In this document: in pieces, positions 20,799-31,722 of the stretch
Layout of the letters: every line of letters starts with the position of its first letter
Position numbering within the stretch: position 1 is the stretch's first letter
Assembly (NCBI GenBank): GCA_031127225.1
Contig: JARIEV010000023.1
Coordinates: forward strand, 1 to 32,113
From: Gemmatimonadota bacterium
Lineage (GTDB): Bacteria > Gemmatimonadota > Gemmatimonadetes > Gemmatimonadales > Gemmatimonadaceae
Direction: 5' to 3'
DNA: 32,113 nucleotides
Position numbers and translations under genes: made by a program
Notes under the pieces: generated by a model
Databases searched by the model: none
Seen by the model: the letters and a program-made list of their open reading frames with translations, nothing else
What the model was told of the DNA's origin: nothing

Positions 20799-21458
20799 AT
20801 GATGTCCTACCGCATCCTGACGGCATATCTGTTCTGGTCCATCGCCGGCGCGTCGGTCCTCGTGGCGCAGGGCGCCCCACTGCGTCGCGACTCCGTTGCG
20901 CCGCGCCTGAGCGGTATCGCCAGCGACGATCAGCGGTTGCAGGCCGGCGATGTCGTCCGTGTCAACATCTGGCGTGAACCCGCGCTCACCGGCGATTTCC
21001 CGGTGGATGAATCGGGCGTGGTCACCCTGCCGCTGATCGGGCGCCGACAGGTCACGTACACGGCGTGGGCGCCGCTCCGCGATTCGCTCATCACGGCCTT
21101 CCGCCGCGACGTAACGACTGAGGTGATCACGATCGTGCCATTGCGGCGCGTATACGTTCTCGGGGCCGTGCTGCGGCCGGGTATCTACATGCTCGATCCC
21201 ACCATGGGCGTCGAAGCCGCCGTCGCCTTAGCCGGCGGTGCCGCCATCGACGGCAATCTGGAGCGCCTGCGCATCCTGCGCGGGGGCCAGGTAATCGTGC
21301 GCAATCTCTCGATCACCGCTGCCGTCGGGCGACAGCCGCTGACATCGGGTGATCAGGTGTTTGTGGATCGACGCTCGTGGGTGGACCGGAACAGCGCGTT
21401 GCTGCTCACTTCGGTCCTCTCCATCGGCGGGATCATCGCCGCACTCAGCCGGAACTGA
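20799..21458 (+). CDS. Polysaccharide export protein, Wza-like
   Basis: A 219-aa periplasmic or outer-membrane protein for polysaccharide export. ATG 20799 or the adjacent ATG 20802 starts a signal peptide ending near LVAQG (residue 25). There is no lipobox Cys, unlike E. coli Wza. The poly-export domain (about 45-115) shows LQAGDVVRVNIWREP and DESGVVTLPLIGRRQV. An SLBB-type segment follows: VYVLGAVLRPGIYMLDPTMGVEAAVALAGG (119-148). The protein ends in a hydrophobic helix (ALLLTSVLSIGGIIAALS, 200-217), which may insert in the outer membrane. It is shorter than Wza because it has only one SLBB repeat. It lies 137 nt after the GT4 gene on the same strand and ends 18 nt from the convergent Wzi-like gene. 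Confidence 0.88.
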   Translation: MMSYRILTAYLFWSIAGASVLVAQGAPLRRDSVAPRLSGIASDDQRLQAGDVVRVNIWREPALTGDFPVDESGVVTLPLIGRRQVTYTAWAPLRDSLITAFRRDVTTEVITIVPLRRVYVLGAVLRPGIYMLDPTMGVEAAVALAGGAAIDGNLERLRILRGGQVIVRNLSITAAVGRQPLTSGDQVFVDRRSWVDRNSALLLTSVLSIGGIIAALSRN

Positions 21459-21476: not shown

Positions 21477-23135
21477 TTACCGCCAGCCGCGCACCGACAC
21501 CGCCGCCCGCAGGTTGAAGACGTCGTTGCCGGGCACGAGGTTGCGGTTGAGATCCATCATGGCGCTCAGCGTGCCGGACACCTCACGCCCACCGACAAAC
21601 TGCAACATTTCTCCGGTCACAGCATACCGGATGTCACGCCGCACCAAGCTGTCGCCGCGCACGTCGGCACGCCAATCCAGGCGCATCATCCGCTCCGCCA
21701 GGAGCGAGCGGCGCCCGCGGGCGGTGAACCGATCGAAACCGACGCGCCATCCCGCACCGCCATATGCCACCGGCGATGCCAGGATCAAGCCGTTCTGCGT
21801 GTGCCCCTGACCCACGGCACCATGCAGGTACGGGGGAAACGGAGCGGAGAAGCCGCGCTCCGCTCCCACGCCGCGCTCCCCCCGGTTGGAAGAGGGCAAC
21901 TCCCCGTTCACCAGTTCGGCGTGCAGCGTATGCAGGTGCGTGGCGGATGATGACAGCACGCGTTGCAATCCCAGCATGGAGGTACGCAGATCGTCGGGAT
22001 ACTGAATGAGCCGCCGGCGATCGAGTGAATAGTCATCGCGGAACATCTCGCCGAACAGCACCAGCCGCGCTCCGCTGAATTGCCAGCGAAAAAACAGCGA
22101 GGCCATCTGGTTCTCCATCCGCTGATTCAACTCGCCGGTGCCGCTCAGACCTCCGGAAATCAAACGACGGAAGGCCGCCGTGCCGGGCCAGGTGCGTTCC
22201 GAAATCCCGTGGATGAACCGGGACGCGCCGACTTCCAGCCCTGTGAGCCCGCGCGGCAGGAACACGAACACCCCCGCCGTGGCGGTCCGAATGGCCTGAT
22301 CGGCCGGCATTGGCGACCACGCAGACTGCGTGAGCTGACCGCCAATGACGCGCAGATGGACGGCACCGATGCCCACCGGGACGGGCAATGGCGTCCCGAG
22401 AAAGACGTGGGGAAAGCCGCCAGCATTTCCACCCAGCAGCAGCGGATACTCCCGGGCGGGCCCCCAGCTCTGTGCCGCCGTCGAGAGACCGATCGAGAGG
22501 AGCGGTAAATCGAGTGACAGCGTGCTGTTGCCGGCGTCGATGCGCTGGTATGCGCCCACGCCAAAGGCTTGCGGCGCATCGATGTTCCGAGGGAAGCGCG
22601 GATCGGCGAACGCGCCGTTTTCCCGACGGCCGTTGGGCGCCAGCGCGAAGGCCTGATTCTGTGCACGGAAGAGCACGGGAGCCACCTGCAAATGCACGCG
22701 CCAGAGCTGCGCGGAAAAGCCGAATCGCGCATCCGCCGTGACACCGCGCCCCGTCCAGACGGGGCCACGCTCATCGCCGCTGGGCACGGCGGAATTCCAC
22801 GTCACACGCACCGATGGGCGCAGGAACCGTGCACGGATGAATGATCGTGTCGTATCCGTGACCCAACGCGACTGCCATGGGTGTACGCTGTCCGCGATGG
22901 CCCCGCGCAGCCAGCGCGGGGTGACCGGACGAATCGTCCAGGACTGCGGTGCCGCGACACCCGCCAACTGCAACGCGCGCAAGTATCGTTCCGCCTCGCC
23001 GCCAACTTCGAGATTGCCGCCAGCGTCAAGACGCAACGACCCCTGCGCCCGCAGCGGCGCGGACACACACAGCGCCAGTCCGCACAGCAGTACGGCGGCC
23101 GGCGCGATAGATTGACGACATGCGCGGGACATCAT
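21477..23135 (-). CDS. Wzi-like capsule assembly barrel protein (copy 1)
   Basis: A 552-aa outer-membrane beta-barrel resembling Wzi, the lectin-like protein that anchors capsule to the cell surface. ATG 23135 (or 23132) is preferred over 23156 because it places a clean signal peptide ending PLRAQG at the N-terminus. Family features are a region with RVTWNSAVP, then GPVWTGRGVTADARFG, and SWGPAREYPLLLGGNAGGFPHVFLGTPLPVP. The rest alternates polar and aromatic residues as expected for a 16-18-strand barrel. A TATATT element (23148-23143 on this strand) lies 8-13 nt before the ATG, suggesting a nearly leaderless transcript. Its 5' end overlaps that of a divergent paralogue. Family call is good; the sugar bound is unknown. 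Confidence 0.82.
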   Translation of the reverse strand: MMSRACRQSIAPAAVLLCGLALCVSAPLRAQGSLRLDAGGNLEVGGEAERYLRALQLAGVAAPQSWTIRPVTPRWLRGAIADSVHPWQSRWVTDTTRSFIRARFLRPSVRVTWNSAVPSGDERGPVWTGRGVTADARFGFSAQLWRVHLQVAPVLFRAQNQAFALAPNGRRENGAFADPRFPRNIDAPQAFGVGAYQRIDAGNSTLSLDLPLLSIGLSTAAQSWGPAREYPLLLGGNAGGFPHVFLGTPLPVPVGIGAVHLRVIGGQLTQSAWSPMPADQAIRTATAGVFVFLPRGLTGLEVGASRFIHGISERTWPGTAAFRRLISGGLSGTGELNQRMENQMASLFFRWQFSGARLVLFGEMFRDDYSLDRRRLIQYPDDLRTSMLGLQRVLSSSATHLHTLHAELVNGELPSSNRGERGVGAERGFSAPFPPYLHGAVGQGHTQNGLILASPVAYGGAGWRVGFDRFTARGRRSLLAERMMRLDWRADVRGDSLVRRDIRYAVTGEMLQFVGGREVSGTLSAMMDLNRNLVPGNDVFNLRAAVSVRGWR

Positions 23136-24853
23136 TGCGAAAAATATACAGCGCACGACATGCGCTCGTGGCCGTACGCGTCGTCGCCGTGCGCGTTGTC
23201 GCCGTCAGCGTGGTCGCCGTGACCGCTCCGTTACTGCTGCGCGCACAGGCTGCTCCCGCACGACCTCTGGTCAGCATCGGTGGCCCAGTGCTGCTGGGGA
23301 GTGAAGCCGAGGAACGACTACGCCTCGAGTCGCTGCGACGCCGAGCGACGGCGGCCGAGCGCAAGAGCGCAAGCGATCTCTCCATCGCGTTTTCAACGGT
23401 GCGCAGTGCGTCGGTGCTGGCATCGCTCGCGCGCTCACGCGCCCCCCGACGCTACGCCGTTGACGTGCTCTCCCCCGAGGTACGGGTGGTGCAGAACTCG
23501 GGGCTCCCATTCTCCATCAACGAGGGGCCGCTCTGGGCGGCACGCGGCACGAATACCATCGCGACAGCCGGCGTCGCGTTGCACATCGGTCCGCTGAGCG
23601 CGCAGATCGCCCCGCAGTACATCCGCAGCGAAAACCGGCGCTTTCAGGTGATTCCGTACCCGCAGGGGAATGTGCCGGCGCGCAGCGTGTGGGCGAATCC
23701 CTTCCACCCGCCGGCGTCCTCCATCGATCTGCCGCTCCGCTTCGGGGACCGCCCGATCGAGCGGGTCGTGCCCGGACAAAGCCGCATCGCGCTCGACCTG
23801 CCACTGATTACCGTCGGTGCCAGCACGGAAAATGTATGGTGGGGACCGACGATCAGAAATCCGATCCTGCTCGGCGCGAACGCCGAAGGGATACCCCACC
23901 TTCTCGCCGAGACACGTCAGGGGCTCGCGACACCTGTCGGCCGACTGCATGCCGTCGGTATGCTCGGGCGCCTGCGCGAATCGTCGTATTTCGATGCGAA
24001 TCCATCGAACGATGTGCGATCGCTGAGTGGTGTGCTCTTCGCGTGGACCCCATGGTTCGATCAGGCGTTCACGATCGGTGTGGCCCGCCTCGTGATGAGC
24101 ACCACCACTGGCCAGGTGCCGATCCGTCATGCGGCGAATGCCTTCCTGAAAGTCAGCCAGCCGATTCTGTCCGATCCCAACGGCAGCGTCACGACGGCGC
24201 GGCGCGACCAGATCGCCACGCTCTTCGCACGCTACGCGATCCCGTCGGTGGGAACCGAAGCCTGGGCGGAGTGGGCGCGGTTCGCGGAGCCGGTCTCGCT
24301 GCGTGATGCGTTGGAGTATCCGGGCTATTCGTTCGGCTTCACCGCCGGCCTGCAATGGGCACGATCCCTCGGGGGGTCACGACTGCTGCGACTGCAGGGT
24401 GAGGCCACCAACCTCGAACCCGATGCCTCGATTCGCGTCCGCCCGGTGGCCACCACGTACACCAGTCGGACGGTGCTGCAGGGGTTCACCAATCACGGTC
24501 GGACCATCGGAGCGCCCATCGGACCGGGGGCCTCATCGCAATGGATCGCCGCCGATATCCTCGGTGACCGGGTGCGGGTCGGCGTCTACGGCGGTCGCAT
24601 CCGGTGGGACAATGCTACATTGTGGGATCCGGTCGTCCCGCAAGTGAAGCTCGAAGATGTGTCATTGCTGGGCGGCCTGCGCGGCAGTGTCAGTCTCAGC
24701 CGCATGAGGCTCTCCGTCGACTACACCTCGGCGATACGTCTCAGCTATCTCTACCAGAGCAAGGTCCTGGATCCCGCTCGCGGCACCACCGGCGGAGTCG
24801 ACCTCGCCAACCGCACGCTGGCCGTAACGCTGTCCACCGCCGTGGGACGGTAA
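23120..24853 (+). CDS. Wzi-like capsule assembly barrel protein (copy 2)
   Basis: Divergent paralogue of the preceding Wzi-like protein; 577 aa from ATG 23120. Shared features in the same order include VRVVQNSGLPFSINEGPLWAARG, and VWWGPTIRNPILLGANAEGIPHL, equivalent to the WGP...LLG.NA.G.PH segment of copy 1. The start is uncertain: ATG 23120 lies inside the 5' end of the divergent gene; TTG 23135 and GTG 23168 are in-frame alternatives that still leave a signal peptide ending LLLRAQA. That signal peptide contains a threefold AVRVV-like repeat. It is followed after 12 nt by the chain-length gene, so the two are probably co-transcribed. The role is inferred as surface attachment or export of the polysaccharide. 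Confidence 0.8.
   Translation: MRGTSLRKIYSARHALVAVRVVAVRVVAVSVVAVTAPLLLRAQAAPARPLVSIGGPVLLGSEAEERLRLESLRRRATAAERKSASDLSIAFSTVRSASVLASLARSRAPRRYAVDVLSPEVRVVQNSGLPFSINEGPLWAARGTNTIATAGVALHIGPLSAQIAPQYIRSENRRFQVIPYPQGNVPARSVWANPFHPPASSIDLPLRFGDRPIERVVPGQSRIALDLPLITVGASTENVWWGPTIRNPILLGANAEGIPHLLAETRQGLATPVGRLHAVGMLGRLRESSYFDANPSNDVRSLSGVLFAWTPWFDQAFTIGVARLVMSTTTGQVPIRHAANAFLKVSQPILSDPNGSVTTARRDQIATLFARYAIPSVGTEAWAEWARFAEPVSLRDALEYPGYSFGFTAGLQWARSLGGSRLLRLQGEATNLEPDASIRVRPVATTYTSRTVLQGFTNHGRTIGAPIGPGASSQWIAADILGDRVRVGVYGGRIRWDNATLWDPVVPQVKLEDVSLLGGLRGSVSLSRMRLSVDYTSAIRLSYLYQSKVLDPARGTTGGVDLANRTLAVTLSTAVGR
23171..23215 (+). repeat. Degenerate 15-bp triplicate inside a signal peptide
   Basis: Three imperfect 15-bp units (23171-23185, 23186-23200, 23201-23215; GCCGTACGCGTCGTC and variants) followed by a partial fourth encode AVRVV-AVRVV-AVSVV-AVTA. 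The units differ mostly at third codon positions, so this is an older or selected version of the same kind of repeat seen at 12552-12641. Confidence 0.8.
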
Positions 24854-24865
24854 CGACACCGATGA

Positions 24866-26464
24866 ATGATGCCTGCTGAACTCACGCCACCGGTGATCAC
24901 CCGCGCACCAAGCCGATCGCTCTGGTTCCCGCTCCTGGCCGGCAGTTGTGTATTTGGCATCGTAGCAACATGGACGTTGCTGGCGACGCCACGATACCGC
25001 AGCAGTGCGCTGCTGCGCATCGAGAGCGCCGCGGGCGGCACGCCGCTTCTCGATGAGCTCAAGGCCGTTCCCGGTGTTGAGCTCATGGGGCTCGGGCGCG
25101 ACGACCTCGAAACAGAAATCGGCGTACTCAAGAGCCGTCGACTGGCCGACGCCGTGATCGACTCACTGGTGTACATGGTACGCGTGGACCCGGCGGCGGT
25201 GCCGCGCGCATCGCTGGTCGAGGTGATCCGTCGCGATACGACGGATGCGAGCGGTCGCATCGTGCTGACACGGAGTGACCGTGGACGCTTCTCGGTCACC
25301 AGCAGCGATCTGAAACCCACCGCAGCACTGCCCACAACAGTTGGTGCCGGCGATACGCTGCGCATCGGCGGCCTGCATCTCCGGCTGGCCACGTCCGCAG
25401 CACTGGACACAACGGCGACGGTGACCATCACCTTGCTCCGTCGGTTCAGAGCGGAGGAGCGCTTCGACGACCGGATGGAGATTCGCACGCAGGAGGGCGG
25501 CTCCCGCCTCGTGCAGATTTCCTTCGAAGACGCCGACCGTGTGCTGGCGGCAACGGCGGTGGAGCGGCTGGTCGCGGAGTATCTGCGCTACACGCTGGAC
25601 AACAGTGGTCGCGATGACTCGCGTCGGCTCACCGAATTACGCCGGGAAGTGGCAACGTTCGCGCAGCGTTTGGCGGCGGCCGAGCAATCGCTGCGCCGCT
25701 TCAAGGAAAGCCGGGAGCTCGTCATCCCTGATGAGCAGGCATCCGCGCAACTCAAGCGGATAGCCGCGCTACGCACCGGGCTGGATGAGCTCGAGGTGGA
25801 ACGCACCGCACTCGCACGCATGCTCGCGCTCATCGAGACGCGATCCGGTGGCGGACGTGATCCACTCGCGTATCGCCAGCTCGCCACGTTCCCGTCACTG
25901 ATCGCCAACCGGGCGATTCAGGATTATCTCATGACATTGGTCGCGCTGGAGAACAAGCGCAGCGAGATCGATGTGCGCCGCACCGGCGAGAACGATGAAG
26001 TCCGGCAACTCACGGGACGGATCGGAGAGCTCGAACAGCAGTTGATGCGGGTCGGGACACAGTATCTCGAAAGCCTGGACCAGCAAATCGGTGTGGCAGC
26101 CAGCAGTGTGAAGTCCATCAGCAGCGATCTCGCGGTATTTCCGCAACAGGAGATGGAGTTCGTGCGGCTGGTGCGTGACCGCACGGTGTTGACGGAGGGC
26201 TACGTGGTCCTGCAACGGCAGCTCAAACAGCTGGAACTGCAGACCGCCATGCGGAGCGATCGGATCCGGGTTGTCGATGCACCGCGCGTGGCCGACGCCG
26301 ACGATACCGCCTATCCACGCATCACCGTTCAATTACTGCTCGGTGCGATCCTCGGCGTGGCCGTCGGGCTGCTGGTGATGTTTGGCCGGCTGCTCGTCTC
26401 ATCGAGCGGTATCCAGCCCGCGACCAACGCCGTCCAAAAGGTAGGCTCGGCCAGCGCACCGTAA
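24866..26464 (+). CDS. Wzz-type polysaccharide chain-length determinant
   Basis: A 532-aa inner-membrane protein of the polysaccharide co-polymerase class, which sets polymer length. ATG 24866 is followed by another ATG. The first membrane helix is about residues 19-40 (LWFPLLAGSCVFGIVATWTL), followed by the Wzz motif TPRYRSSALLRIE. A large periplasmic part contains long charged coiled-coil segments (about 250-430, for example LRREVATFAQRLAAAEQSL). PRITVQLLLGAILGVAVGLL (about 484-503) starts the second helix. There is no C-terminal tyrosine kinase domain, so it is Wzz/Wzc-N-like rather than full Wzc; a separate kinase might exist elsewhere. The last 136 nt overlap the 3' end of the convergent ligase-like gene. 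Confidence 0.87.
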   Translation: MMPAELTPPVITRAPSRSLWFPLLAGSCVFGIVATWTLLATPRYRSSALLRIESAAGGTPLLDELKAVPGVELMGLGRDDLETEIGVLKSRRLADAVIDSLVYMVRVDPAAVPRASLVEVIRRDTTDASGRIVLTRSDRGRFSVTSSDLKPTAALPTTVGAGDTLRIGGLHLRLATSAALDTTATVTITLLRRFRAEERFDDRMEIRTQEGGSRLVQISFEDADRVLAATAVERLVAEYLRYTLDNSGRDDSRRLTELRREVATFAQRLAAAEQSLRRFKESRELVIPDEQASAQLKRIAALRTGLDELEVERTALARMLALIETRSGGGRDPLAYRQLATFPSLIANRAIQDYLMTLVALENKRSEIDVRRTGENDEVRQLTGRIGELEQQLMRVGTQYLESLDQQIGVAASSVKSISSDLAVFPQQEMEFVRLVRDRTVLTEGYVVLQRQLKQLELQTAMRSDRIRVVDAPRVADADDTAYPRITVQLLLGAILGVAVGLLVMFGRLLVSSSGIQPATNAVQKVGSASAP

Positions 26465-27606
26465 AACACGCCGAACACAGCGACCGCACATACCAACGGC
26501 GCCAGCGGCGCATCACGAACGACCGGCAGCGCCATCAGCAGGAGCAGTGCGAGCAGCGCGAAAATGCCCGACTCGGCGAAGAGGCCGACGTACACCGAAT
26601 GAAAATTTCCGTAGCGATCACCGGGAAAGAAGTCTTGCAGCACCAGATGCGAGCTTCCATAGCCGATACCATGCAGCGTGGCCGGTACCGACCGTGTGGC
26701 CGTGGACAGACCGCGCTGCAGGAGACGGAGGTGATCGCGGGACGATCCTTCGGTGACGGCAAAACGCTGTCCCAGCGGCTGCACCGCGCGCGCCCCCACA
26801 GCTCGCACAGCCGGGGAGACCAGGAGCGCGCCCGTGGTGACGATCACGGATGTCGCCACCGCGACAAGGAGAGCCGGCGGTATCTGGATCAGGCCGCCAC
26901 GTTGGCGGACGTGCCGAACGAGCAGCACCAACAGACCGGTCGCTCCGGCCAGCAGCGACGAGCGGGACAACGTCAGGAGGAGCATCACGGCCGTGCCGGC
27001 CAGCCATGGCCATCGGTTGACGCGCAATCCCGTGGCCAGCAGCATACCGTACAGCACGAGCACGAGGCCGCCGCGGTTCGAATCAACCACCGGTCCGGAG
27101 AGACGCGGAATCAGTCCGGCGTACACATCGGGGACGAGCGACACGAGTGAGAGCTGCGATGACGGCCAGTGGCCGGGCAGCAGCGCCGCAAGCGCCGCGA
27201 GCTGTGCGATGTTGAAGGCCGCGAACAGCAGCACACCGGCACGCGCGCCACGAACCACCACGGCCTGCGCATCGTGGCGGTCACGGATCGACAGCCACAC
27301 GGCCAGTGCGCCGAACGAGATGATGATCAACTGTGACACGCGGGTGGCCGATCGCGTCACGTCGTTGCTCACGAACACCGAGATCAACACCAGCGTGACC
27401 AACGCGAGCAACAACAGGGCGAACACCCCGGCCGAAGGGGGTATCCGGAACACGATTCTGTATCGGAGGCGCTGCCACAGTGCGCCCGCCACGACAAGCG
27501 GGGTGAGAAGCAGAAACGGCGTGAGTACGATCGGTCCCGTTCCCCCCAACAGATCGATCCGATCGGCCGCCAGCAGTGCAAACCAGCAGCTGATCAGGAG
27601 ACTCAC
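26329..27606 (-). CDS. O-antigen ligase/polymerase-like membrane protein (Wzy/WaaL type)
   Basis: A polytopic inner-membrane protein of 425 aa with about ten hydrophobic segments, of the O-antigen ligase/polymerase superfamily. The diagnostic LLLTLSRSSLLAG helix lies in the middle. The late periplasmic region holds GIGYGSSHLVLQDF and GNFHSVYVGLFAESGI, whose NFHS-Y-x-L-x-E pattern matches the functional histidine region of the family. In this context polymerisation of repeat units (Wzy role) is the likeliest job, but ligase activity cannot be excluded. It starts with GTG 27606, whose GTGA overlaps the stop of the upstream lipoprotein gene by 4 nt, indicating translational coupling. Its hydrophilic C-terminal tail, about 45 codons, is antisense to the end of the Wzz-like gene. 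Confidence 0.86.
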   Translation of the reverse strand: MSLLISCWFALLAADRIDLLGGTGPIVLTPFLLLTPLVVAGALWQRLRYRIVFRIPPSAGVFALLLLALVTLVLISVFVSNDVTRSATRVSQLIIISFGALAVWLSIRDRHDAQAVVVRGARAGVLLFAAFNIAQLAALAALLPGHWPSSQLSLVSLVPDVYAGLIPRLSGPVVDSNRGGLVLVLYGMLLATGLRVNRWPWLAGTAVMLLLTLSRSSLLAGATGLLVLLVRHVRQRGGLIQIPPALLVAVATSVIVTTGALLVSPAVRAVGARAVQPLGQRFAVTEGSSRDHLRLLQRGLSTATRSVPATLHGIGYGSSHLVLQDFFPGDRYGNFHSVYVGLFAESGIFALLALLLLMALPVVRDAPLAPLVCAVAVFGVFYGALAEPTFWTALVAGWIPLDETSSRPNITSSPTATPRIAPSSN

Positions 27607-28823
27607 GGTCGGGTGAACCGGAACGTGTAGAGACGCGTCTCCCCATCCCGCAGTCGGATACCATCCTCAAACGTGCGCCCCCGGCCCTCCTCGACCACAT
27701 AGCCCGTGGGATTGACGACCCGGAGGCCGTACTCGCTGTCCACCAGGATATCGGTAAACACCAGTTGTCCCGCGGCATCCGTGCGCCCGTCGCGAACAAG
27801 GCCAGCGCTCGTGTACAACACCGCCCGCGCACCGCTCACCGGAGCATCAGTCTGATCGACCACCCGGATGCGCATGGACGCCGACCCGATCCGAACCACG
27901 GTAAACGACGCCTGCAGCGCGCGCCCACGTCGAATGCGCAATCCATCCACGAACGTCACCCCGCGGCCTTCAGTCGCACTGAACCCGCGCGGCAAACGGA
28001 CACGGAGCCCGTACTCGCCACACGGCAGTGACCCGAGCTGCAGCCGATCGCCGGTGACCGGATACTCGCCCTGAACGCCCGCTCCGGTGTACAGGAGGAG
28101 GCCGGCACCGGGGACGGCGCCGCCAAACTGGTCGCGCACGGATGCGGCAATCGATCCGATACACCTTTCAAACGTGAAGCGCACTTGTTCGCTGCTGCCC
28201 GCTTCGACAATCAGACCATCACGGGCCGGCAGCGTGGTTTCCCCGCTGTCGACATAGACCAGCGGCCGTTGCACGAACACACCGTAGTTGCCGAACGGGA
28301 CGCCGCCGAACATCACCCGGCCGTCACGATCGGTGTTCGCCTCACGCACCACCCCACGAGGGCTGAAAAGCAGCACGCGCGTGTCGGAGACCGGAGCCCC
28401 TGCCGGCTCGGATACCTGAACTGCGATCGAGCCTGGGCCACGCCGGAGGAACTCAAAGCGAGCGGTGCGCGTCGCCCCACCGAGCACGCGAAGCTCCTGC
28501 ACCACATCGCTGGGCGACGCCACAGAGTAGAGCTCTTCGGGACGGGCGTAGCCGCTCGGTACGCTGGCATACACCCCGTAAACCCCCTCCGGTACATCCA
28601 GAAACGTGTAGCCTCCGGTGGAGTCCGTCGTGCCATAACCCATGGGGCGTTGGCCGGTATACAACACCAACGGAGCTCCGGCGATCGGCTCTCCGGAACG
28701 GCGGGCAGCGGTCACGGTGACCGTACCGTAGAGACCCGGCCGCGTGAGGAGCGACTCACAACCCGCGACCATCATGAATAGCAGGGCGGCTCCGGCCCTC
28801 ACGGTCCGTATCAAGCGCGCCAT
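27603..28823 (-). CDS. Lipoprotein with four tandem carboxypeptidase-regulatory-like domains
   Basis: A predicted lipoprotein of 406 aa. The frame extends to 29198, but ATG 28823 gives a perfect lipoprotein signal (LLFMMVAGC, lipid-bearing Cys22), so it is chosen. The mature part is four repeats of about 90 residues (about 32-125, 131-219, 222-311, 316-405). Each has the pattern of an Ig-like beta-sandwich of the CarboxypepD_reg/Cna-B/SdrD type: a VxVxDxxGAPVxGARVxLYTxxG opening, a DxxGxxxFxxVPxGxYGVxV middle, and an exposed EGRGxTFxDGLxxRxG edge in the last two. Such domains usually bind or present surface ligands; no enzyme motif is visible. It overlaps the upstream GT2 gene by 13 nt and the downstream ligase-like gene by 4 nt, so it is made together with polysaccharide enzymes. 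Specific function unknown. Confidence 0.85.
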   Translation of the reverse strand: MARLIRTVRAGAALLFMMVAGCESLLTRPGLYGTVTVTAARRSGEPIAGAPLVLYTGQRPMGYGTTDSTGGYTFLDVPEGVYGVYASVPSGYARPEELYSVASPSDVVQELRVLGGATRTARFEFLRRGPGSIAVQVSEPAGAPVSDTRVLLFSPRGVVREANTDRDGRVMFGGVPFGNYGVFVQRPLVYVDSGETTLPARDGLIVEAGSSEQVRFTFERCIGSIAASVRDQFGGAVPGAGLLLYTGAGVQGEYPVTGDRLQLGSLPCGEYGLRVRLPRGFSATEGRGVTFVDGLRIRRGRALQASFTVVRIGSASMRIRVVDQTDAPVSGARAVLYTSAGLVRDGRTDAAGQLVFTDILVDSEYGLRVVNPTGYVVEEGRGRTFEDGIRLRDGETRLYTFRFTRP

Positions 28824-29806
28824 AGCACGCCCGCATTCCTGATCCATCCAAACTCCGAAAGGAGGTGCAGGCGTATCACAGCGAGTTTGCGTGGAAGCCA
28901 GGCGGCGGTGGGGATTTGTGCGTACGCGTTGAGAAAAGTACGCTCCGGCAGAGAGAGTTCGGTACCGAAGCGTACGGACAGCGCGCCGGCCTGCCGTGCC
29001 GCCATGGCGATATCGGCGCGCACGGCCGCACGGCGCGACAGCGCGCGGACGGCCAACCCCGGCCAGCGATGCCACGGTTGCTGCTGCAGAGCCGTGCGGG
29101 CACCGATCACATTCGTCGCATGCTGCCGATACCGCACGGTGGCCACAGGCAGCGCGATGACCCGACCAACGGTCGCCGCAACCAGAGCAAGCCACCAATC
29201 GTGCATGGCACAGTCAGCAGGAATCCGGCCGGCGCGTTCACGAAGAGCCCGGTTCACCAGCACGGTACATCCCGTCACGACGTTGTGTGACGCGAGCCGG
29301 CGGAGGGTCGCGGGCTGCGGACGGATACCGGCCGACGTCCAGAAGGAGGAGGCGATCGGCCGCAGTTGCGCATCGACCACTTCGAGATCGGTGTGCACCA
29401 GCACCGCTCCACCATGCTCCCGCTCGGCGGCCTGCATGGCTTCAAGCGACCACTCGATCTTGCGCGGGTGCCAGACGTCATCCTGGTCGGCAAACATCAC
29501 GTACTCAGCGTCGGGTGGGACATGATCCCACAACCAGGCAAAGGAGCCGGCCGCACCGCGTTGATCGCCCAGCGTCGGGAGCACGACGATGCGCTGATCA
29601 CGCGCCGCCGCCTGCTCCAGGATTGCCGGAGTGCGATCGGCGGACGCATCGTCGCGCAGCAGCAGCACCCAGTGCGGGCGGGACTGGGCCGCCAGACTCG
29701 ACAGCAGCTCTTCGAGATACGCCGCACCATTGTGCACCGCGCACAGGATGTACACGCAGGGGGTCGGTTTATCGGCACCGACACCACACGCATTGTCACC
29801 CGTCAT
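28811..29806 (-). CDS. GT2 glycosyltransferase (rhamnosyltransferase-like)
   Basis: A 331-aa cytoplasmic glycosyltransferase of GT-A fold, inverting family 2. The N-terminal nucleotide-binding region has VYILCAVHNGAAYLEELLSSL (18-38) and LLLRDDASADRT (48-59). The metal-binding Asp motif is FADQDDVWHP (105-114), the variant typical of rhamnosyltransferase-like GT2 enzymes. Further on, NRALRERAGRIPADCAMHDWWLAL carries the acceptor-side HDWW signature common to that group. It likely adds one sugar to the lipid-linked repeat. ATG 29806 overlaps the stop of the upstream CapD-like gene as ATGA, and its own stop lies within the start of the lipoprotein gene. Donor sugar not determined. Confidence 0.9.
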   Translation of the reverse strand: MTGDNACGVGADKPTPCVYILCAVHNGAAYLEELLSSLAAQSRPHWVLLLRDDASADRTPAILEQAAARDQRIVVLPTLGDQRGAAGSFAWLWDHVPPDAEYVMFADQDDVWHPRKIEWSLEAMQAAEREHGGAVLVHTDLEVVDAQLRPIASSFWTSAGIRPQPATLRRLASHNVVTGCTVLVNRALRERAGRIPADCAMHDWWLALVAATVGRVIALPVATVRYRQHATNVIGARTALQQQPWHRWPGLAVRALSRRAAVRADIAMAARQAGALSVRFGTELSLPERTFLNAYAQIPTAAWLPRKLAVIRLHLLSEFGWIRNAGVLWRA

Positions 29807-31722
29807 CCGGAGACAGCGACGGGCTGAACGGACGCCCCTGCCCCGAAGATCTGGGCGGTGGGGATGTCGGGGGCCGGGTCTGCGCCGAAGTCCTCGACGA
29901 GACCATGCATAGCCTCAAGCAACCAGGCATCGTCCGGCGCGTGGTCCAGCGCGTCCAGCAGCGACTGCAAACGCACCCGTGCGATTTCCGGCACGCCGAC
30001 GTGTTTGCTGCGGAGCACCTTCGAGTGCGCGGTCGGCTCAGCCATCTCGGCACTGAAGAACATCTCTTCGTACAGTTTTTCGCCGGGACGGGCCCCGGTG
30101 AAGCGGACCTCGATATCCACGCCGGGTTCGAGTCCCGACAGCTGAATCAGGTCACGTGCCAGATTCACGATCGGCACGGCTTCGCCCATGTCGAGACAGT
30201 ACACCTCGCCGCCCGTTCCCATGGCGCACGCCTGCAACACGAGCTCCACGGATTCGGGGATCGTCATGAAATACCGGCGCATTTCGGGGTGCGTGACCAG
30301 CACGGGACCACCCGCGAGAATCTGTCGCATAAAGGTCGGCACCACGGACCCACGGCTGCCGAGCACATTGCCGAACCGCACGGCCACATACGCGCGTCCG
30401 CTGTCCTGTGCGGCCAGCTGGACCGTCTGCTCGGCGATACGCTTCGTAGCGCCCATCACGCTGGTGGGACGCACAGCCTTGTCCGTCGAGATGAGCACCA
30501 GACGCATCACGCCGCACGCCATGGCGGCATCCACCACACTCTGCGTGCCAACCACGTTGTTCCGGAACGCCTCGAGCACGTTCGCCTCCATCAGCGGCAC
30601 GTGCTTGTGTGCTGCCGCATGAAACACCACCGCTGGGGCATAGCGCTGCATGACCGCACTCATGGCCGCCCGGTCGCGAACATCGAGAATGACCGGCGTC
30701 GTCACCATGCTCGGGAAACGCGCCCGGAGCTCCTGCTGAATCTCAAAAATGGAGTTCTCACCACGACCCAGGAGCACGAGCTGAGCCGGTTGGAACACCG
30801 CCAGTTGACGGCATAGTTCCGATCCGATCGAACCACCGGCGCCGGTCACCAGCACCGTCTGTCCGCGAATCAGGCGGCGAACCGGCGCGGTATCGCCGGC
30901 CACCACCTCGCGTTGCAGCAGGTCCTCGATCCGTACCTGGCGCAGTGCCGCCACTGCCGTGCCGCGGGTGATCTGTTCATGCAACGACGGGACGGTGCGG
31001 GTTTCCAGACCACTGGCGCGCGCCAGTTGCAACACGCTGCGGATCGCCGAGCCCGACGCGGACGGCATCGCAATGATGACGTGCCGGACACCCGTCGCGA
31101 GCGCCACGCGCGGCATGGCCGTCGCAGCGCCGAGCACGGGAAGATCCCCGATCTGCAAGCCGTGCTTCCGCGAGTCATCATCAAGGAAGGCGACCGGCAC
31201 GAATCCGGCGCGGTCCTGCGATAACAGTTCGCGCGCCACCATCTGTCCCGCCTGCCCGGCGCCAACAATAAGGACCGGCACCGAACCGGAACGACGACGG
31301 TCGAGCGCACGACGCTCGCGGCGACGGCGCAACAGACGCGCCGTAATACGCGAGAGCGTCACCGCGCCGCCAGACAGCAACGCATCAAGCGCGAGCACGG
31401 ACAACGGAACCCGCGACGCAATCAGCCCAGCACCGGGTAGGGCCACGGCACCGACGACGAACGAGCAGACACCGGCGGCGGCGACGGCCACCAGAATGCG
31501 CTCCAGTTCGGCCACACTGGCCAGCGACCAAATGCGCCCGTACATCGCGAGGCTCCAGAAGATCACGATCCGCGCCGGGATCGTGATCAAAAGGAACAGT
31601 GTGACGACCCATCCTTCCCCGGCGACCCACCAACTGACGCCTTCGAAACGGATGGTATAGGCCGCGACGATCGACAGACAGAGCGCTGCCAGATCGAGGA
31701 GGAGAAAATACCGGTTTCGCAT
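29803..31722 (-). CDS. Nucleotide-sugar 4,6-dehydratase/epimerase, CapD/FlaA1/WbpM type
   Basis: A 639-aa inner-membrane-bound enzyme of the extended SDR family that modifies a UDP-sugar (commonly UDP-GlcNAc) for polysaccharide synthesis. Four membrane helices occupy about residues 5-125. A CoA-binding-like Rossmann domain starts at VPVLIVGAGQAGQ (148-160). The SDR domain follows with VTGAGGSIGSELCRQ (292-306), HAAAHKHVP (368-376) and STDKAVRPTSVMGATKR (412-428). The catalytic YxxxK is replaced by Met423-x3-Lys427, the substitution known for WbpM-type dehydratases. This is the full-length form with membrane anchor. CAGGAG lies 12 nt before ATG 31722. It is followed by a 4-nt overlap with the GT2 gene and heads the four-gene operon; the aminotransferase gene ends only 30 nt upstream and may be co-transcribed. 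Confidence 0.93.
   Translation of the reverse strand: MRNRYFLLLDLAALCLSIVAAYTIRFEGVSWWVAGEGWVVTLFLLITIPARIVIFWSLAMYGRIWSLASVAELERILVAVAAAGVCSFVVGAVALPGAGLIASRVPLSVLALDALLSGGAVTLSRITARLLRRRRERRALDRRRSGSVPVLIVGAGQAGQMVARELLSQDRAGFVPVAFLDDDSRKHGLQIGDLPVLGAATAMPRVALATGVRHVIIAMPSASGSAIRSVLQLARASGLETRTVPSLHEQITRGTAVAALRQVRIEDLLQREVVAGDTAPVRRLIRGQTVLVTGAGGSIGSELCRQLAVFQPAQLVLLGRGENSIFEIQQELRARFPSMVTTPVILDVRDRAAMSAVMQRYAPAVVFHAAAHKHVPLMEANVLEAFRNNVVGTQSVVDAAMACGVMRLVLISTDKAVRPTSVMGATKRIAEQTVQLAAQDSGRAYVAVRFGNVLGSRGSVVPTFMRQILAGGPVLVTHPEMRRYFMTIPESVELVLQACAMGTGGEVYCLDMGEAVPIVNLARDLIQLSGLEPGVDIEVRFTGARPGEKLYEEMFFSAEMAEPTAHSKVLRSKHVGVPEIARVRLQSLLDALDHAPDDAWLLEAMHGLVEDFGADPAPDIPTAQIFGAGASVQPVAVSG

Follow-up and report, generated by a model that had tools for sequence, protein, structure and literature searches.

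The window, by which we mean the whole 32,113-nt stretch of DNA analysed here, belongs, as contig 59, to a Gemmatimonadota draft genome of 3.6 Mb (sister MAG, JARIEX010000016.1) and carries a polysaccharide locus that includes four consecutive minus-strand open reading frames, 29803-31722, 28811-29806, 27603-28823 and 26329-27606. These overlap by 4, 13 and 4 nt, as the initial annotation had it, and an aminotransferase fragment, truncated by the contig end at 32113, extends the operon. Beyond the wzy operon the locus encodes a Wzz protein, two Wzi-like barrels and a short OPX protein. The features, in window coordinates, are as follows.

29803..31722, minus strand: nucleotide-sugar 4,6-dehydratase of the PglF/CapD type (PF02719, Polysacc_synt_2, 6e-114)
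28811..29806, minus strand: GT2 glycosyltransferase (PF00535, Glycos_transf_2, 3e-16)
27603..28823, minus strand: lipoprotein of 406 aa with four tandem prealbumin-like sandwiches, family A (PF13620, 3.6e-21; lipobox; AF2; domain HMM)
28758..28823, minus strand: signal peptide and lipidation Cys22 of the lipoprotein (VAG/CES; from sequence, with a lipobox in nearly all homologues)
28443..28736, minus strand: domain D1, the sole domain of one-domain homologues (AF2, domain HMM)
28167..28442, minus strand: domain D2 (AF2, domain HMM)
27888..28166, minus strand: domain D3 (AF2, domain HMM), with Cys221 and Cys268 invariant in four same-genus sequences
27609..27887, minus strand: domain D4 (AF2, domain HMM)
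26329..27606, minus strand: polytopic membrane protein of the Wzy_C family, taken to be the repeat-unit polymerase, Wzy (PF04932, 1.1e-9)
24893..26464, plus strand: polysaccharide co-polymerase of the Wzz/GNVR type, lacking a kinase domain (PF13807 above cut-off, PF02706 weak)
23288..24853, plus strand: Wzi-like putative outer-membrane barrel A (PF14052, 27.9 bits, below the 30.1 cut-off)
21477..22811, minus strand: Wzi-like putative outer-membrane barrel B, homologous to barrel A (PF14052, 21.5 bits, below cut-off)
20799..21458, plus strand: short non-lipidated OPX protein, 219 aa (PF02563, Poly_export; PF10531, SLBB)

The Wzz gene is convergent with the wzy operon and is found in nearly all homologous loci. 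The two mutually homologous Wzi-like barrels are divergently oriented (21477-24853), the start of barrel B being uncertain, with its frame open to 23156. The OPX protein is short and without an outer-membrane-spanning domain, consisting of Poly_export and SLBB only, as composite OPX/beta-barrel systems require. Such systems also call for an 18-stranded outer-membrane barrel encoded close by, for which the two Wzi-like genes, with their sub-threshold PF14052 matches, are candidates.

The lipoprotein and its same-genus loci

The product of 27603-28823 had been described as a lipoprotein of four tandem carboxypeptidase-regulatory-like sandwiches, and the lipobox, the Pfam matches, a domain HMM and an AlphaFold2 model all confirm this. 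The domain HMM and the model (mean pLDDT 86) give exactly four sandwich domains of 92-97 residues each; the CarboxypepD_reg model (PF13620) is matched with 75.7 bits against a gathering cut-off of 32.3, three stretches passing singly, and SdrD_B and SpaA matches are present in addition. The lipobox (VAG/C22 in the window protein) is clear in nearly all homologues of the same family, here called family A, and also in a second family, B, described below, while the conserved residues of D1 are mostly Gly, Pro, Tyr and hydrophobic. Tandem sandwich architecture and fold are shared with the CnaB/SdrD_B/SpaA stalks of Gram-positive pilins and MSCRAMMs, but unlike these the window protein has a lipid anchor, lacks a C-terminal LPXTG-type sorting signal (its C-terminus reads ...YTFRFTRP) and goes with a polysaccharide polymerase. 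It also shows no sign of a CnaB-type isopeptide cross-link, since the invariant columns of the four same-genus homologues contain no Lys. The GfcB/YjbF family model was absent from its Pfam matches up to E 0.05.

Single-protein queries placed the lipoprotein and Wzy_C matches in the same four genomes of the window genus, in one locus, and the best GT2 and Wzz matches fall in those four genomes as well, the GT2 gene being the upstream neighbour of the lipoprotein gene in the same-genus loci. Among the four, lipoprotein identity drops to 44%, and two of the proteins have five domains. The 4-nt overlap of dehydratase and GT2 genes occurs in the window genome only; in the sister locus (G020, 88% identical) a flippase and a divergent GT2 separate the two, so the overlap reflects a local rearrangement. 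The 13-nt overlap of GT2 and lipoprotein genes recurs in G020 and G011, with a 23-nt gap in G012, and the spacing between the lipoprotein and wzy genes across the four loci is -4, -4, +7 and +8. The pairing is conserved and the overlaps are not. Translational coupling therefore gives no support to a fixed stoichiometry of lipoprotein and polymerase, the overlaps being unconserved and the gene lying apart from wzy in six genomes. As to the genes intervening in the sister locus, the flippase and divergent GT2 of L021:12600-15500 are missing at window positions 29780-29830; in G020 flippase and GT2 form one 768-aa open frame (L021:11625-13931), and a G011-like flippase is encoded on another contig of the window genome, C193 (L042:1513-2736).

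Pairing of the lipoprotein with Wzy across the phylum

A profile built solely from the four lipoproteins of the window genus was searched against 395 Gemmatimonadota genomes and gave strong matches in 26, all in polysaccharide loci. This overturned an early impression of a narrow distribution, which was an artefact of sensitivity, single-sequence searches having missed homologues outside the genus (a single-sequence scan of genome contigs returned the sister genome only; the lipoprotein, barrel A and Wzy had no matches on plasmids). A Wzy profile gave strong matches in 25 of the 395 genomes, followed by a gap from about 1e-43 to 1e-9, and all 25 also have a family-A lipoprotein in the same locus, that of G183 being counted as one locus though split over contigs. 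In the 26th lipoprotein genome (G249) the locus lies on a 9.1-kb contig and is cut by the contig end. The matches span at least 15 genera in three families, and the Fisher p for co-occurrence is ~1e-38, a value that does not allow for shared ancestry. Only sequences of the window genus went into the lipoprotein profile, so the other 22 lipoprotein matches are independent of Wzy; the profile for Wzy took in loci found via the lipoprotein, though 10 of its 25 genomes lie outside it.

Within these loci the lipoprotein gene overlaps wzy or sits within 100 nt of it in 18 of the 25 genomes and is fused to it in one (G278), which makes it, fusion included, the next gene to wzy in 19; five loci have it between opx and wzz, with wzy 1.6-1.7 kb off, and one has it 4.3 kb from wzy, the gene starts behind these spacings being partly inferred. 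The earlier suggestion of a recurrent part of Wzx/Wzy loci tied to the polymerase is thus supported, both by this co-occurrence and by the fusions described below. For this Wzy family, within the phylum, homologues do not lie mostly in unrelated contexts, nor is the lipoprotein missing from otherwise syntenic loci. Carboxypeptidase-regulatory-like domains are common in these genomes, with many weak matches elsewhere, so a generic lipoprotein of this kind might have come to lie in the locus by chance; co-occurrence without exception across some 14 genera, together with fusions that arose twice, leaves this strongly disfavoured, to the point of being hardly credible.

Weak lipoprotein matches in G286 and G134 were rejected as generic multidomain proteins outside recognised polysaccharide loci, that of G134 being a 3012-aa protein with many similar sandwich domains (L126:7315-16353). 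Wzz-like loci elsewhere in the order (L034 and L036-L039), which have neither barrels nor such a lipoprotein, were set aside.

A typical family-A locus encodes Wzz, WziA, WziB and OPX, often with Wzx and a GT2. The Wzy_C protein scores 38.7 bits with PF04932 against a cut-off of 31.7, and its relatives are polytopic; from locus content only, with Wzx, Wzz and OPX present and no other polymerase candidate recognised in the inspected family-A loci, we infer that it is the Wzy polymerase and not a WaaL ligase. The distinction matters for a role that the initial annotation had offered, in which the lipoprotein is the acceptor of the polymer; the PF04932 enzyme would then be the ligase that joins the two. 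PF04932 does include ligases, and adjacency or fusion would suit an enzyme and its acceptor, but the enzyme is needed as Wzy in loci of this content, the number of domains is free to vary and we noticed no conserved patch of the kind expected in an acceptor; we found no specific support for an acceptor and consider it very unlikely.

The variation in domain number is modular. The mature length of family-A proteins steps by whole domains, from one to five by the domain HMM, and D1, which adjoins the lipid anchor, is the only domain always kept, standing alone in G378, G275 and G294. The G332 gene contains three tandem copies of ~279 nt, the closest pairs 90-94% identical (L076:9201-10156), and the congener G093 has one domain.

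A second lipoprotein family and fusions to the polymerase

A search for the Wzi-like barrels found 99 of the 395 Gemmatimonadota genomes positive, with the genes often in pairs, and loci reached through the barrels carry a different Wzy_C protein together with a different lipoprotein, family B. Its members have CDPC...C at the anchor followed by 3-6 sandwiches, with a pilin-like fold in the AF2 model (pLDDT 85.5); families A and B have the domain type in common, but a profile comparison of the two (probability 47%) did not establish homology along their entire length. Family B is strong in 20 genomes, none of which carries family A and 19 of which have barrels. Wzy_C lies on the same contig within ~1-6 kb in ten of these genomes, and in six more (G030, G107, G160, G248, G274 and G314) lipoprotein and Wzy_C form one open frame; the remaining four have no Wzy_C gene on the same contig, which ends nearby in three of them.

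In the fusions (L199:1327-4146, L200:6687-9209, L201:9516-11987, L202:2820-5594, L203:6555-8945 and L204:5007-7913) the lipoprotein is joined to the polymerase C-terminus, the order being polymerase, a further hydrophobic segment, a lipobox-like sequence, an invariant Cys with a CxPC motif, and the sandwiches. All six keep the internal Cys and the xPCxG...C after it without change, and since G160 is a single contig, misassembly is improbable as an overall explanation. The Wzy parts of the six form one clade (support 0.997) with long branches, which points to one old fusion that has been kept, and the family-A fusion of G278 is separate and represents a second origin, less certain in that it is known from one MAG only. 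An invariant lipobox inside a polytopic enzyme is unusual and predicts either a lipidated polymerase or a polyprotein cut by signal peptidase II.

Membrane location and role

In E. coli, Asp at position +2 after the lipidated Cys favours retention in the inner membrane. An acidic residue occupies +2 in 18 of the 26 family-A lipoproteins and in every one of eight standalone family-B proteins aligned, but never in BamD-like lipoproteins, sampled from 24 related genomes; a baseline of nine other lipoproteins includes the family-A proteins of the window and G020, and with those excluded none of seven is acidic. We take this as a hint of inner-membrane retention, qualified by the small baseline and by the chance that the E. 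coli rule may not hold in Gemmatimonadota. The surface location originally assigned to the lipoprotein stays a conjecture, and the fusions and the acidic +2 residues point, if anything, to the inner membrane.

We lean, with modest confidence, towards reading the lipoprotein as a periplasmic subunit dedicated to partnering Wzy, and not as a free adhesin, in the Wzx/Wzy-dependent polysaccharide systems of Gemmatimonadota. It would be a stalk of 1-6 prealbumin-like sandwiches, anchored in the inner membrane with its membrane-proximal end beside Wzy and in contact with it, that would most likely hold or guide the chain as it grows, between Wzy and its co-polymerase Wzz, in the direction of the short OPX protein with its outer-membrane barrel. 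Pairwise distances of D1 correlate better with those of Wzz (r 0.87) and of Wzy (0.80) than with those of the barrels, which fits such a partner, though the correlation is confounded by inheritance of the whole locus. About half of the 99 barrel-positive genomes have neither lipoprotein family, which indicates that the lipoprotein is no generic or fixed part of the exporter and goes instead with particular polymerases.

Both of these results argue against a GfcB-like role, in which the protein would be an outer-membrane partner of the OPX/beta-barrel exporter and contribute the lipid anchor missing from the OPX proteins. The OPX proteins of these loci are indeed without a lipobox, the five loci with the gene between opx and wzz would agree with such a role, and so would the near-constant presence of barrels (19/20) in family-B genomes; fusions are nevertheless to Wzy, with none to OPX or a barrel, and we judge an exporter partner improbable.

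Some of the evidence that sits awkwardly with a periplasmic partner of Wzy would suit a surface anchor specific to the polymer, a stalk lipoprotein of the outer membrane that would bind the finished polysaccharide and keep it attached to the cell, as the lectin Wzi does for group 1 capsules, and track Wzy because both are polymer-specific. Tandem sandwiches of rapidly varying copy number typify surface stalks and adhesins, the matches by fold are to pilin shafts and MSCRAMM stalks of Gram-positive bacteria, and each Wzy family has its own lipoprotein family, never both in one genome. Such an anchor deserves more weight than the exporter role but is still rather unlikely, given adjacency and fusion to an inner-membrane polymerase, the Wzi-like barrels that nearly all loci already hold, and the acidic +2 residues, unlike BamD. 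Three further points count against the periplasmic partner: the gene stands apart from wzy in six family-A loci, one-domain versions are hard to picture as a trans-periplasmic guide, and the internal lipobox may be cut, freeing an ordinary lipoprotein able to move elsewhere. A stronger form of the same proposal, plausible although we lean slightly against it, makes the lipoprotein an obligate, so far undescribed subunit of one class of Wzy polymerases, a variable-length stalk that would couple polymerisation to Wzz and the OPX/barrel exporter, its fixed ratio to Wzy being secured by position as the next gene or by a fused polyprotein with an internal lipobox.

Among known systems, GfcB, a lipoprotein of the E. 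coli group 4 capsule, binds GfcC and the outer-membrane barrel GfcD (PMC8592465). The window lipoprotein resembles it in being encoded among capsule-export genes, with a product that acts in a complex in the GfcB case, but belongs to a different domain family and is tied or fused to Wzy. The Wzi lectin is an 18-stranded barrel, an envelope protein implicated in holding the capsule and not in repeat-unit synthesis (PMC3791409), whereas in our loci Wzi-like barrels occur alongside the lipoprotein. In the literature searched, which omits most subscription journals, we found no description of a Wzy-linked lipoprotein or of a PF04932/PF13620 fusion. The Wzx/Wzy pathway, the idea of a composite OPX/barrel and a capsule lipoprotein with an export protein as its binding partner are all known. 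In the strict pairing and the natural fusions we see a concrete candidate for a component that would couple Wzy to chain-length control and the exporter in capsule and exopolysaccharide assembly, and a defined pair, a single polypeptide in some genomes, for structural work.

The closest comparison is with EpsX/EpsY and WzpX/S/B of Myxococcus xanthus, Wzx/Wzy pathways with a composite OPX/beta-barrel translocon (PMC9601211, PMC9603273), papers in which we found no Wzy-linked sandwich lipoprotein described. Wzx, Wzy, a Wzz-type co-polymerase, a short OPX protein with no outer-membrane domain and an outer-membrane barrel, putative in our loci, are encoded together in both, but our loci differ in that two Wzi-like barrels are paired, the OPX proteins have no lipobox and a sandwich lipoprotein is linked to Wzy. 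The OPX protein of the window (20799-21458) has a hydrophobic C-terminus of ~20 residues, and the short OPX proteins of myxobacteria are mostly lipidated.
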